A program made the translations under genes and the position numbers. The notes beneath the pieces were generated by a model. It worked only from the letters and a program-made list of their open reading frames with translations. It did not search any database and had not been told where the DNA came from. This document shows positions 33,775-38,274 of a stretch of DNA of 64,000 nucleotides, one piece after another (positions within the stretch are counted from its first letter, which is position 1; the number at the start of each line of letters is the position of its first letter). Location: positions 69,916-133,915 of the forward strand of contig NZVC01000022.1 of NCBI GenBank assembly GCA_002701395.1, read 5' to 3'. This DNA comes from Maritimibacter sp. (GTDB lineage Bacteria > Pseudomonadota > Alphaproteobacteria > Rhodobacterales > Rhodobacteraceae).

Positions 33775-35145
33775 TCAGACGCTGATCTGCTCGGGCGGAT
33801 TGTCCAGAAGCTCGCGCAGTTTCTGCATCGCCGCTTCGAACCGGGCCAGCCCGTGGCGCGCGTTGATCGAGATCCGCACCGCATGGGGCGCCCGCCCGTC
33901 ACGCAGGACGAACTCGTCCGCCGCGCGGACCTGAACGCCCGCGGCTTCGGCCCGCTGGCAGAAAGCGCCGGCGCGCCAGCCGGACGGCAGGCCAAGGTAC
34001 AGGAACGGCACGTCCTCGCGCCATGTCAGGTCGTGGCCGCCCAGCACGTTCACGGCGGCGCGGACATAATCGTTCATCGTGCGCCGTGCGTCGTCCATCA
34101 GCCGGGCCAGCTTCGGCGCGCGCAGCAGTTCCACTGTCAGATCGGCCAGCGGCGCGGATATGCCGAAGAACCCATGCTCGGCCGCGCGCCGCAGACCGGC
34201 GCCCCGCCCCGCCGGGGCCACGGCAAAGCCGATGCGCAGCGCCGGGGTCAGGTGTTTCGACATGGAACTGACATACCAGCCCTGTTCGGGCAGCAGCGCG
34301 CGATAGGGCCGCCCGACCGGTGTGCCCAGACGATAGCAATCGTCCTCGACCAGTTGCAGCCCGGTGCGGCGCGCCACGTCGATGATCTCCATCCGGCGCC
34401 ATTCCGGCGTGCACAGGGTCGTGGGGTTGTGCACTTCGGGCGAGGTGCACAGCAATTGCGCCCCATGCCGGCGCACCGCCTCTTCCAGCGCGCCGGGGAT
34501 AAGGCCATGTTCGTCCATCGGCACCGCCACGGGGCGCGCGCGCAGCAGGTCGGCGGCCCGGCGGAACCCCGGATACAGCATCTCTTCCACAAGGATCACG
34601 GGATCGGACCCGCGCAGGATCGCCTGCATGGTCAGCAGGATCGCGTGCTGCCCGCCGTGCGCCGGAACCACGTCCGCCGCGTCCAGCGGTCCAAGATGGG
34701 CCGAGGCCAGCCACCGGATCGCCGCATCGCGCAGCGGCGTGGCGACACGGCTGGGATAGTCCAGCATGTCCGACACGCCGCCCTGCTGCCCGACCTTGAC
34801 CATCAGTTCCCGGATCAGCGCCACCTGCCCCACGTCGGGAAGGCTGGGGCCGTACAGGCGCATCGGCCCGTCCGGTATCGTCTCGGCCGCCTGCGCGCGC
34901 TGTTCGGCCACGAAGGTGCCGCGCCCCACGGCAGCTTGCAGCAGCCCCTCGTCCGTCAGTTCGGTATAGGCGCGGGCCACGGTGCCGGGGGTGATCCCCA
35001 ACGTCCACGCCAGTTCGCGCACCGGAGGCAGCTTTTCCCCCGTGGTCAAGGCACCGCTGCGCACCCCGTCCCGGATCGCCTCGGCGACTGCGGCGTATTT
35101 CGGGCCGGACCGCCCATCCAGGCTCGGCTGCCAAATTGTATTCAT
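33775..35145 (-). CDS. MocR-type GntR/aminotransferase fusion regulator
   Basis: 456 residues. Residues 1-75 form a GntR winged helix (KYAAVAEAIRDGVRSGALTT; then ELAWTLGITPGTVARAYTEL). Residues about 105-450 form a fold-type I aminotransferase domain with the PLP lysine in SSMSKHLTPALRIGFAV and the PLP-phosphate segment AHGGQHAILL. MocR proteins bind PLP or an amino compound and control adjacent genes. The ATG at 35145 lies inside an ATTGTA-TTCAT-TACAAT palindrome, one of several such boxes in the divergent gap, so autoregulation is likely. The effector is unknown. Confidence 0.92.
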   Translation of the reverse strand: MNTIWQPSLDGRSGPKYAAVAEAIRDGVRSGALTTGEKLPPVRELAWTLGITPGTVARAYTELTDEGLLQAAVGRGTFVAEQRAQAAETIPDGPMRLYGPSLPDVGQVALIRELMVKVGQQGGVSDMLDYPSRVATPLRDAAIRWLASAHLGPLDAADVVPAHGGQHAILLTMQAILRGSDPVILVEEMLYPGFRRAADLLRARPVAVPMDEHGLIPGALEEAVRRHGAQLLCTSPEVHNPTTLCTPEWRRMEIIDVARRTGLQLVEDDCYRLGTPVGRPYRALLPEQGWYVSSMSKHLTPALRIGFAVAPAGRGAGLRRAAEHGFFGISAPLADLTVELLRAPKLARLMDDARRTMNDYVRAAVNVLGGHDLTWREDVPFLYLGLPSGWRAGAFCQRAEAAGVQVRAADEFVLRDGRAPHAVRISINARHGLARFEAAMQKLRELLDNPPEQISV

Positions 35146-35226
35146 TACAATCTTTCCCTCGACTTGGTACATGCGCGATTGTACTGCTACATACGTGGCA
35201 ACATCGCCTCATTGTGTCAATACAAT
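35135..35226. promoter_or_regulatory. Repeated TACAAT/ATTGTA boxes between the MocR and DUF1127 genes
   Basis: ATTGTA (35135-35140), TACAAT (35146-35151), ATTGTA (35178-35183), ATTGTG (35211-35216) and TACAAT (35221-35226). The first two and the last two each form an inverted pair. They fill the divergent gap and reach the start codon of the regulator, so they are likely its operators. Confidence 0.65.
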
Positions 35227-35241
35227 TCGAAAGGACATCCC

Positions 35242-35466
35242 GTGACACAAGCACACCCGAACGACGCCCTCGGCTATCTCTCCCGCCGTCCCCTGCCGCC
35301 GATTTCCGCGGTTGCGCTGCGCTTCGTGGTGGTGCTGACCAAATGGGATGAGCGTCGCCGCACCCGACGTTCGCTTGGCACATTGGACCCGCACCTGCTG
35401 CAGGACATCGGCCTGACCAAGGGCGAGGCGCGGCTCGAGGCCGAGCGCCCCTTCTGGAAAGACTGA
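35242..35466 (+). CDS. DUF1127 small protein
   Basis: 74 residues, starting with GTG (VTQAHPNDALGYLSRRPLPP) after GAAAGGA. The C-terminal half is the DUF1127 motif: KWDERRRTRRSLGTLD, then PHLLQDIGLTKGEA. In other alphaproteobacteria short DUF1127 proteins bind RNA or affect sRNA turnover and phosphate or carbon metabolism, but this one has a longer N-terminal part than the 40-50-residue forms. It is divergent from the MocR gene and shares its operator-like boxes, so it is a probable target. Its own terminator is at 35541-35568. Confidence 0.85.
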   Translation: MTQAHPNDALGYLSRRPLPPISAVALRFVVVLTKWDERRRTRRSLGTLDPHLLQDIGLTKGEARLEAERPFWKD

Positions 35467-35540
35467 CGCGGCTGGCGCGATGGCGCCAAAGTTACGGCGG
35501 CCGCCGGCTTTCTACTCCCCTGTCTGGTGGCCCCATCCTG

Positions 35541-35568
35541 GGGGCGGGTCCCGTCCCGCCCCTTTTTT
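35541..35568 (+). terminator. Terminator after the DUF1127 gene
   Basis: Perfect stem GGGGCGGG-TCCCGT-CCCGCCCC followed by six T, 75 bases after the stop codon. Confidence 0.9.
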
Positions 35569-35690
35569 GCTTGGCCAAATCCCGGCCCCAAGGACCCGCT
35601 TTCCGTGGTCAGGAAGGGCCGTCTTCGTTAGCGCCAACATCGATGACGCAGCGTCATTTACCACAGCATCGAAAAGCCCGAAAAAAACGC

Positions 35691-35820
35691 TTGAACGACT
35701 CGGTCCCTGCCCTTAGATCGCCGCCACGAGCGAGGGACCGATCCCAACTTACGGGCAGCCAAGGCTGCCACGGGGGGGCGCTAAGGAACCTCTGGATTCA
35801 ATCTACTGGCTAGAAGGGGA
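35691..35820 (+). promoter_or_regulatory. Structured leader upstream of speD (possible pseudoknot)
   Basis: CGGTCCCT (35701-35708) pairs perfectly with AGGGACCG (35733-35740). Its loop contains CCTTAG (35711-35716), complementary to CTAAGG (35781-35786). Between them lies GGCAGCC-AA-GGCTGCC (35754-35769). The set ends just before AAGGGG, the speD ribosome-binding site. Alternatively TTGAAC (35691-35696) and TTAGAT (35713-35718) are a weak promoter, in which case the first stem would not be transcribed. No gene is seen in 35569-35826. Confidence 0.4.
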
Positions 35821-35826
35821 CGTGTC

Positions 35827-36339
35827 ATGGACGGCACCAACCTCTTCCAACTGGGGATCGGTCTGGAGACAGGCGCCCATGAGGAAGATTCGTGTGTCCG
35901 CATTGCGGCCACCACCGAAACGACCATTGAACGCGACGTGTTCGACGAAGACCGCGAAGATCACTTCATCCGCCGTGACGGCCGGGTGTTCGCCGGGACT
36001 CACCTTATCATCGAGGTGGTCGACGGCACGGGCCTGGACGACGAGGCCCGGATCCAGCAGGCCTTCCGCGACTGCGTGGACGAATGCGGCGCAACGCTGC
36101 TGCACATCCACACGCACAAGTTCTCGCCGCAGGGCGTGAGCGGCGTGGCCGTGCTGGCCGAAAGCCACATCTCGGTCCATACGTGGCCGGAAATCGGCTA
36201 TGGCGCGTTCGATGTCTTCATGTGCGGCGATGCGCAGCCCTGGCTGGCGGTCGACGTGCTGAGCAAGGCGTTCAACACACCCGACGTGCGGGTGAAGGAA
36301 CTGCTGCGCGGCGACGGGCTGGTCGAAGACCCCGCCTAA
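35827..36339 (+). CDS. speD: S-adenosylmethionine decarboxylase proenzyme
   Basis: 170-residue proenzyme that self-cleaves between Glu112 and Ser113 (AESHISVHTWPE) to make the pyruvoyl group. Other active-site residues are His118 and Cys133 (FMCGDA). It makes decarboxylated SAM, the aminopropyl donor for SpeE. Class 1b enzymes usually have about 120-135 residues; here about 45 extra N-terminal residues are present. AAGGGG precedes the ATG. It is paired with speE, 1.1 kb downstream, across an opposite-strand Nudix gene. Confidence 0.95.
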   Translation: MDGTNLFQLGIGLETGAHEEDSCVRIAATTETTIERDVFDEDREDHFIRRDGRVFAGTHLIIEVVDGTGLDDEARIQQAFRDCVDECGATLLHIHTHKFSPQGVSGVAVLAESHISVHTWPEIGYGAFDVFMCGDAQPWLAVDVLSKAFNTPDVRVKELLRGDGLVEDPA

Positions 36340-37419: not shown

Positions 37420-38274
37420 ATGACCGACATGACCGGATGGAGCGTAGAGCGCCTGCACGATGATCACGCCCAGGCCCTGCGCGAAGAACAGGTCCACTAC
37501 GACAGCAAAACCGACCACCAGCGCCTGCGGGTGTTCGAGAACCCGACCTTCGGCCGCGTCCTGACGTTGGACGGGGTGGTGCAGACCACCGAGGGCGACA
37601 ACTTCATCTACCACGAGATGATGTCCCACGTCCCGATCCTTGCCCACGGCGACGCCCGCCGGGTGCTGATCATCGGCGGCGGCGACGGGGGCATGGCCAA
37701 GACGGTGCTGAAACACCAGACGGTGCAGCATCTGACGATGGTCGAGATCGACGCGGGCGTGGTGGACTTTTCGAAGGAATACCTGCCCACCCTGTCGGAC
37801 GGCGCCTTCGACGATCCGCGGCTGGAACTCGTCATCACCGATGGTGCCGATTTCATGCGCGAGACCGAGGGAGGCTACGACGTCATCATCATCGACTCCA
37901 CCGACCCGGTCGGCCCCGGCGAGGTGCTGTTCACGGATCATTTCTACGGCCACGCCCACCGCGCGCTCAGCCCCGAGGGCATTCTTGTCACCCAGAACGG
38001 CGTGCCGTTCCTGCAGGGCGATGAACTGACGCACACTATGCGCGCCTTCAAAGAGCTGTTCCGCGACTGGACGTGCTACACCGCGACGGTCCCCACCTAC
38101 GCCGGCGGCCCGATGGCCTTCGGCTGGGGCACCGACGGCAAAGCGCGCCATACCGACCTCGACACCCTGAAGGCCCGCTTCGACGCCGCGGCGATCGAGA
38201 CCGATTACTACACGCCCGAGGTCCACAAGGCCGCCTTCGCGCTGCCGCCCTACATCTCGCGGCTCATGCCCTGA
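37420..38274 (+). CDS. speE: Spermidine synthase
   Basis: 284-residue aminopropyltransferase that joins putrescine and decarboxylated SAM. The N-terminal beta-strand domain is followed by a Rossmann domain with the GGGDGGMAKTVLKH nucleotide loop (about 87-100), acidic MVEIDAGVVDF, and the catalytic aspartate in IIIDSTDPVGPGEVLF. The tail matches E. coli SpeE-type enzymes (YYTPEVHKAAFALP). GGAGG precedes the ATG at 37420; the open frame upstream has no ribosome-binding site. With speD it supplies spermidine. Confidence 0.96.
   Translation: MTDMTGWSVERLHDDHAQALREEQVHYDSKTDHQRLRVFENPTFGRVLTLDGVVQTTEGDNFIYHEMMSHVPILAHGDARRVLIIGGGDGGMAKTVLKHQTVQHLTMVEIDAGVVDFSKEYLPTLSDGAFDDPRLELVITDGADFMRETEGGYDVIIIDSTDPVGPGEVLFTDHFYGHAHRALSPEGILVTQNGVPFLQGDELTHTMRAFKELFRDWTCYTATVPTYAGGPMAFGWGTDGKARHTDLDTLKARFDAAAIETDYYTPEVHKAAFALPPYISRLMP

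Follow-up and report, generated by a model that had tools for sequence, protein, structure and literature searches.

Does the leader of speD in this alphaproteobacterium carry an RNA device that senses a metabolite, and which of its bases belong to it? The question was raised by a first-pass annotation of the window (the whole stretch of 64,000 nucleotides analyzed here), which had placed a possible pseudoknotted leader, perhaps metabolite-sensing, in front of the gene. The 170-aa product of speD (35827..36339, plus strand) matches adenosylmethionine decarboxylase (AdoMetDC) families (TIGR03330, 131.9 bits; PF02675), and speE, encoding spermidine synthase, lies downstream on the same strand (37420..38274; TIGR00417 and NF002010, the query for the family match having started one codon upstream of 37420). 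PMC10407285 warns that SpeD homologues may instead be ornithine or arginine decarboxylases; here the sequence favors the AdoMetDC identity, because of the speE neighbor and the TIGR03330 match. The family matches placed the enzyme domain at residues 55-162, and solved uncut AdoMetDC chains align from residues 56-57 on; therefore, the first 54 residues form an extension outside the known fold. From codon 22 on, this extension is highly variable in sequence up to the enzyme domain in the speD loci displayed, and the length of the speD gene differs among relatives. Just 5′ of speD lies a gene for a small DUF1127 protein (35242-35466; PF06568), followed by a G+C-rich inverted repeat with a T run (35540-35568) that by eye resembles an intrinsic terminator; divergent from the DUF1127 gene, an open reading frame on the minus strand (33775-35172) resembles, again by eye, a MocR-type regulator with a GntR-like head and an aminotransferase-like body.

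In the window, a −35 box (TTGAAC, 35691-35696) and a −10 box (TTAGAT, 35713-35718) make up a candidate promoter (35691..35718, plus strand) with a conserved spacing pattern: TTG-N20..22-TA was found in all 79 speD upstream regions, the window included, versus 5.9% of shuffles, and it sits 20-25 bases 5′ of a conserved CGATCC motif. A looser promoter consensus score separated real from shuffled regions only slightly (7.09 versus 6.62). From the promoter position, transcription is predicted to start at about 35726.

This prediction bears directly on the pseudoknot that had been proposed, in which CGGTCCCT (35701-35708) pairs with AGGGACCG (35733-35740) in an 8-base stem, GGCAGCC pairs with GGCTGCC in a 7-base stem (35754-35769), and CCTTAG (35711-35716) pairs with CTAAGG (35781-35786). 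When the sequence was re-read, all of these strings were found where they had been reported. The 8-base stem, however, has its 5′ arm in the promoter spacer, and CCTTAG overlaps the −10 box; both segments are very probably not transcribed, because they lie between or in the conserved −35 and −10 boxes. The start predicted from this promoter falls downstream of the first arm, and a start from it is an outcome that the annotation itself had named as speaking against its model. At the same offsets, the 8-base stem was complete in none of the 78 other leaders (the best reached 6/8, in 3 of them), and an 8/8 match anywhere nearby was found in 2 of 79, namely the window and L093. All six CCTTAG:CTAAGG pairs occurred at the same offset in just 4 of the 78 other leaders, and the close relative L032 kept CCTTAG as its −10 box and did not keep the first-stem arm. 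The pseudoknot was rejected on both grounds. The 7-base stem fared better, as it forms the apical part of a hairpin that is conserved (P2, below), with a sequence and length that vary. Folded alone, the stretch 35691-35826 that had been singled out was unremarkable (z of −1.13; 24 of 200 shuffles folded as well).

We then compared the leaders of related speD genes. Relatives were the best 80 of 497 matches from one SpeD scan of genome contigs, most of them named as Rhodobacteraceae or genera thereof; the 79 with upstream sequence plus the window gave 80 leaders, with L091, at a contig end, excluded from every leader count. In all 80 leaders, CGATCC(C/T)A is followed by a stretch that varies and then, just 5′ of speD, by a run of G that ends in GGGCGCTAAGG; L086 differs by one base in this run. 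Alignment A1 comprised 73 of these leaders, without six duplicates and without L048, which carries an insertion; alignment A2 comprised 70 after removal of further duplicates.

The conserved segments assemble into a single 5′ untranslated region (5′UTR) domain, all on the plus strand. In helix P1, the 5′ arm (35732..35739) consists of GAGG (35732-35735), pairing with CCTC (35789-35792), a GA/AA internal loop, and CC (35738-35739), pairing with GG (35785-35786); the 3′ arm is GGAACCTC (35785..35792), and the evidence for both arms comes from pair counts and the own-versus-other test described below. Two core strands follow, both near-invariant in the 73 leaders. In the first, CGATCCCAA (35739..35747), CCC (35743-35745) pairs with GGG (35776-35778) and AA is bulged; the second, GGGCGCTAAGG (35776..35786), has an alternative partner in the coding sequence (35873-35878). 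Between P1 and the CCC/GGG helix lies a near-invariant internal loop, GAU/CGCUAA. The P2 hairpin (35748..35775) has a CYY...GGG base and a variable tip, which contains the 7-bp stem; it is backed by compensatory changes and by the own-versus-other test.

Across the 73 aligned leaders, 93.4% of the cells of this structure were paired, compared with at most 65.8% when the structure was slid along the alignment, and 78 cells had changed on both sides versus 21.7 in shuffles. Counted by pairs, both-side changes in P1/P2 showed no excess (5 pairs versus 4.8 in shuffles), and tree-aware covariation over all pairs within the leader alone (L057 excluded) gave a best pair with an E value of 0.07 and none lower; the CCC/GGG and CC/GG helices hardly vary. 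The own-versus-other test is alignment-free and drew from 99 leaders (L057 again excluded) 22 that were less than 80% alike. The P2 arms of these divergent leaders paired with their own partner at −4.15 kcal/mol, versus −0.54 kcal/mol with the arms of other leaders, and the P1 arms at −5.92 versus −3.93 kcal/mol; each of the two own-pairing sums was reached in 0 of 5,000 permutations. Of two control pairings, one was equaled or exceeded in 2,409 of 5,000 permutations (chance level) and the other in 4,874 (worse than chance). These sequence comparisons support a 5′UTR domain with a covarying P1, a near-invariant GAU/CGCUAA loop, and a covarying P2.

Conservation did not end at the start codon. 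Over 81 speD genes, codons 5-20 were nearly invariant at their synonymous sites, with codon 18 as the exception, in a part of the gene (codons 5-21; 35839..35889, plus strand) that lies outside the SpeD enzyme domain. Where the usual residue was present, it was encoded by AAC in 63/63 cases, CTC in 79/79, TTC in 79/80, CAA in 78/78, CTG in 81/81, GGG in 81/81, ATC in 61/62, GGT in 79/79, CTG (a second position) in 81/81, GGC in 81/81, GCC in 81/81, GCG in 40/40, and GAA in 80/80; GAG (75/79) and ACA (76/81) were less strict, and codons 18 (CAT, 29/41) and 21 (GAC, 45/75) were variable. For comparison, the mean same-codon share over 45 conserved degenerate codons of the catalytic region was 0.74 (79 genes). 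These counts support a constraint on the synonymous sites of codons 5-20 beyond that imposed by the protein.

A partner for the first of these codons was found in the leader. Folds that included the coding start paired the Shine-Dalgarno (SD) sequence GAAGGGG (35813-35819) with CCUCUUC (35841-35847), and this helix, termed PS, is extended by CUGG (35806-35809) with CUGG (35851-35854) and by AUC (35801-35803) with GAU (35856-35858). Its 5′ arm thus spans 35801..35819 and its 3′ arm, in codons 5-11, spans 35841..35858, both on the plus strand; codon conservation, pairing counts, and coincident change all point to the latter. Contiguous complementarity of at least 7 pairs between SD and coding sequence, present in 78% of 80 speD genes versus 20% of 192 other genes, is not rare by itself. 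Over 86 sequences, 93.1% of the PS cells were paired, compared with at most 64.2% when slid, and both-side changes numbered 19 versus 5.1 (standard deviation, 2.0) in shuffles; for the outer three pairs, the values were 88.4% paired versus at most 62.0% slid and 14 both-side changes versus 3.7. The number of pairs with both-side changes (3 versus 2.5) and the number of pair types (13) fell within shuffles; as aligned, 20 of the 86 sequences lack the outermost pair and 25 lack one SD pair.

One pair of PS joins leader base 35802 to the first base of codon 11 (35857). Its leader base could be scored in 95 unique sequences (seven loci with too little coding sequence excluded): 73 have U-A, 15 have A-U, and in 7 the two bases do not pair. 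A phylogeny was built from the enzyme-coding region of speD; of the 8 changes in codon 11 on it, 7 shared a branch with a change of base 35802. Six of these seven turned U-A into A-U and one gave an unpaired A-C, and this level of coincidence was reached in 0 of 20,000 random placements. Among 864 leader-by-codon column pairs, this one ranked first for coincident change (P = 2.9 × 10−8; next, 2.4 × 10−5) and no other combined a P value of <1 × 10−3 with a paired share of 85% or more. Ordered by the raw excess of coincidences, it came just 16th, behind fast-changing columns. These data support PS as a helix that joins the leader (AUC, CUGG, and SD GAAGGGG) to speD codons 5-11.

Conservation of about 35732-35889 was far beyond chance, and most of that span had not been singled out before. 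We are highly confident that a conserved cis-regulatory RNA reaches from the leader (about 35726) through the first twenty or so speD codons (to about codon 21). The first-pass annotation had picked the correct gene and the correct type of feature, and most of its pairings were wrong: its regulatory idea survives, and a conserved element does precede speD, with P1, P2, and the leader-coding helix as the supported partners in place of the ones it had drawn.

Further pairings were considered within the coding part. The RNAalifold consensus of this part is a hairpin, P4 (35843..35888, plus strand), in which UCUUCC (35843-35848) pairs with GGAAGA (35883-35888) around an inner hairpin, often with a GNRA-like loop. 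The closing stem appeared in 13 of 16 single folds (L153 left out), including that of L181, which has a longer inner hairpin; it was missing in L109 and L180, and L148 has a variant. In codon-preserving shuffles, at most 7 of 500 shuffles were as stable in 4 of 21 sequences and the signal was weak in most, with a mean z of −0.66 versus −0.21 in 110 control windows, four second-family sequences being badly matched in codon usage. P4 is a predicted hairpin of the folding model; it and PS would be mutually exclusive because they share the bases of the CUUCC stretch. In a second family, the leader GGCGC and the GCGCC of codons 16-17 change in step, leader C going with coding G and leader U with coding A, in eight of the nine loci (all but L151); these loci are related and the events are few.

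Three other candidates were set aside. Leader GACCGATCCC (35736-35745) could pair with GGGATCGGTC in codons 10-13; at least 8 contiguous pairs were found in 61 of 102 sequences (L062 left out of the count), with no compensation where codon 11 changes, and synonymous-shuffle P values over 15 sequences were 0.0085-0.025 in seven and 0.097-1.0 in eight. This pairing is possible as an alternative. Pairing of leader GGGCGCTAA just 5′ of the AUG, with at least 6 contiguous Watson-Crick pairs, occurred in 36% of 80 leaders versus 1.7% of 177 other gene starts; it is absent in many leaders, the leaders are related, and we make no claim for it. An upstream open reading frame through GATCCC...CGCTAA was rejected, as its frame is not kept across leaders.

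The distribution of the element was surveyed with a covariance model of its core (R1, 70 positions). In the window's own genome, R1 gave one match, at speD, the next having an E value of 3.6. Among 394 Rhodobacteraceae genomes, R1 matched 66 (E ≤ 0.01) and SpeD was found in 97 (E ≤ 1 × 10−10); all 66 were among these 97, and none of the 297 SpeD-negative genomes matched. In 65 of the 66, the match shared contig and strand with speD and lay directly 5′ of it; in the other (G200), the two are on different contigs. A conserved structured leader is thus tied to metabolically coherent genes, as is expected of a riboswitch, with 66 of 66 matches in speD genomes. A class-wide sample of 385 genomes held a single R1-positive genome outside Rhodobacteraceae, and in the family of that genome, the second alphaproteobacterial family, R1 matched 9 of 61 genomes (E ≤ 1 × 10−5), the nine leaders preceding a speD-like start; P1 there (GCGAUG/CAUUGC in most) differs in sequence throughout and retains its pairing. 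A strict DNA pattern for codons 5-13 was found in 1 of 289 class genomes, the window's own, in a listed sample that excludes the second family's matched genome. The core pattern had no exact match in viral contigs, and the element had no match in plasmids.

Of the 31 Rhodobacteraceae speD genomes that R1 did not match, the upstream regions of 14 were examined. In twelve, both the leader and the N-terminal string were missing (for L164 and L166, among these, the speD frame was not identified), and two (L156 and L157) kept LFQLG and AUCUACU before the SD with an unrecognizable 5′UTR domain. These two loci (L156/L181 and L157/L182, in G012 and G021) look as if the platform had outlived the sensor. 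One copy is degenerate (L169/L180, in G067): it has no ATG in the position that normally follows the leader, and it carries a short repeat in the region of codons 9-10; intact counterparts exist in relatives.

How might such an RNA act? We consider it reasonably probable that it is a translational cis-acting switch for speD, likely of the riboswitch type, with SAM, decarboxylated SAM, putrescine, and spermidine as ligand candidates. In the OFF state, PS would hide the ribosome-binding site of speD. The GGGCGCU strand could pair either within the 5′UTR domain or with GCGCCC of codons 16-18, the latter extending PS. Formation of the 5′UTR domain, stabilized by a bound metabolite, would withdraw GGGCGCU and weaken PS, upon which the coding strand would fold on itself (P4) and speD would be translated. 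Under this ON logic, a substrate-side ligand (SAM or putrescine) would fit; spermidine or decarboxylated SAM would require the opposite logic. We infer this logic from folding models. When the two states were forced, the SD was more often unpaired in ON (0.48 versus 0.23 in OFF) and higher in ON in 77 of 79 sequences, an outcome that the constraints partly dictate, and OFF was the more stable in 63 of 79; the GGGCGCU extension was not part of this forced OFF state, which paired GGG of the CUGGGG stretch with CCC of the leader. Forcing or forbidding the 5′UTR domain alone did not consistently shift how open the start region was, with 30 of 80 cases moving in one direction and 36 in the other.

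Other explanations of the same conservation were weighed. SpeD or another RNA-binding protein may block or free the ribosome-binding site, with the RNA sensing no small molecule. Strong conservation of unpaired and loop bases would suit a protein site equally to a ligand pocket, and the core model matched at speD only in the genomes searched, as expected of an autoregulatory site; we regard such putative autoregulation as unlikely, and as the most serious competitor. Less probable still is a structural attenuator or RNA thermometer, in which PS would hold SpeD at one set level or at a level that depends on temperature, and the role of the 5′UTR domain would be limited to stabilizing the mRNA. 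The link that PS makes between SD and coding sequence recalls the rpoH thermosensor of Escherichia coli, and the preference of the forced folds for OFF agrees with it; the P1/P2 core bases, however, hardly vary in the 73 leaders and recur in the second family, and a thermometer would presumably not need near-invariant internal-loop bases.

Control by a peptide, in which an upstream open reading frame or the conserved SpeD N terminus LFQLGIGLETGA stalls ribosomes, appears very improbable. The N-terminal peptide is indeed conserved, and SpeFL-type arrest peptides operate in polyamine control, but conservation at synonymous sites roughly equals that of the peptide itself, and at codon 11 the amino acid varies while the base pairing is mostly retained. 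Leader loop lengths are spread over all three frames (17, 31, and 32 of 80), and therefore no conserved upstream open reading frame spans the leader. The pseudoknot of 35701-35708/35733-35740 with CCTTAG:CTAAGG, exact as its strings are in the window, has a negligible chance of being correct, with its 5′ pieces in the promoter and its pairings absent from nearly all relatives. Set against these alternatives, a metabolite sensor remains the reading that we favor, if by no great measure.

None of the known classes compared here accounts for the element. Rfam 15 (4,227 models) gave no match above the gathering threshold in the 64-kb window, in agreement with the earlier remark that the arrangement fits no riboswitch class that can be named; a scan of 35560-35900 at E ≤ 10 returned two eukaryotic chance matches far below threshold, and among eight related loci, four gave none and the other four together gave one below-threshold CRISPR repeat match (E ≤ 0.5). 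SAM-II, SAM-V, and SAM/SAH riboswitches are compact alphaproteobacterial leaders near SAM genes that act at the ribosome-binding site and fold as H-type pseudoknots; the speD element has another sequence, and cmscan returned no match to them in the window and the eight related loci. In SAM-III (the SMK box), the SD is part of the fold, and in the E. coli rpoH thermosensor, the leader pairs with coding sequence. The speD element differs from both in sequence, structure, gene, and lineage, and it combines a separate, highly conserved 5′UTR domain with a leader-coding helix. The speF leader elements and the SpeFL arrest peptide likewise control a polyamine enzyme through its leader; in contrast to these, the speD element has no Rfam match and no conserved upstream open reading frame.

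Searches of open-access literature turned up no description of a comparable speD leader element. The sole spermidine riboswitch class found there is a rare, four-stem variant of SAM-I, with 13 representatives from Gram-positive bacteria and metagenomes, which precedes polyamine genes including speD and speE and ends transcription upon spermidine binding (Salvail et al. 2023, PMC10853860). The two share their position before polyamine genes; the speD element has one unbranched 5′UTR domain (no branch points in the model) instead of the four-stem SAM-I architecture, occurs in alphaproteobacteria, carries a helix that would hide the SD, and has no SAM-I match in Rfam. We tentatively propose, with slightly more doubt than conviction, that Rhodobacteraceae and a second alphaproteobacterial family share a new class of riboswitch responding to a metabolite of the polyamine pathway (SAM, decarboxylated SAM, putrescine, or spermidine). 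Its expression platform would lie inside speD, where the first twenty or so codons, which fall outside the enzyme fold, would be conserved as RNA, and the N-terminal extension would largely serve RNA regulation. The element presents a leader-to-codon base pair resolved through repeated compensatory change and an enzyme N terminus with synonymous sites constrained beyond the protein, and it opens SpeD control in these bacteria to direct tests. If the proposal is true, it would add to the rare SAM-I variant a second, structurally unrelated case, at the SAM-consuming step of spermidine synthesis and widely kept in a large family.
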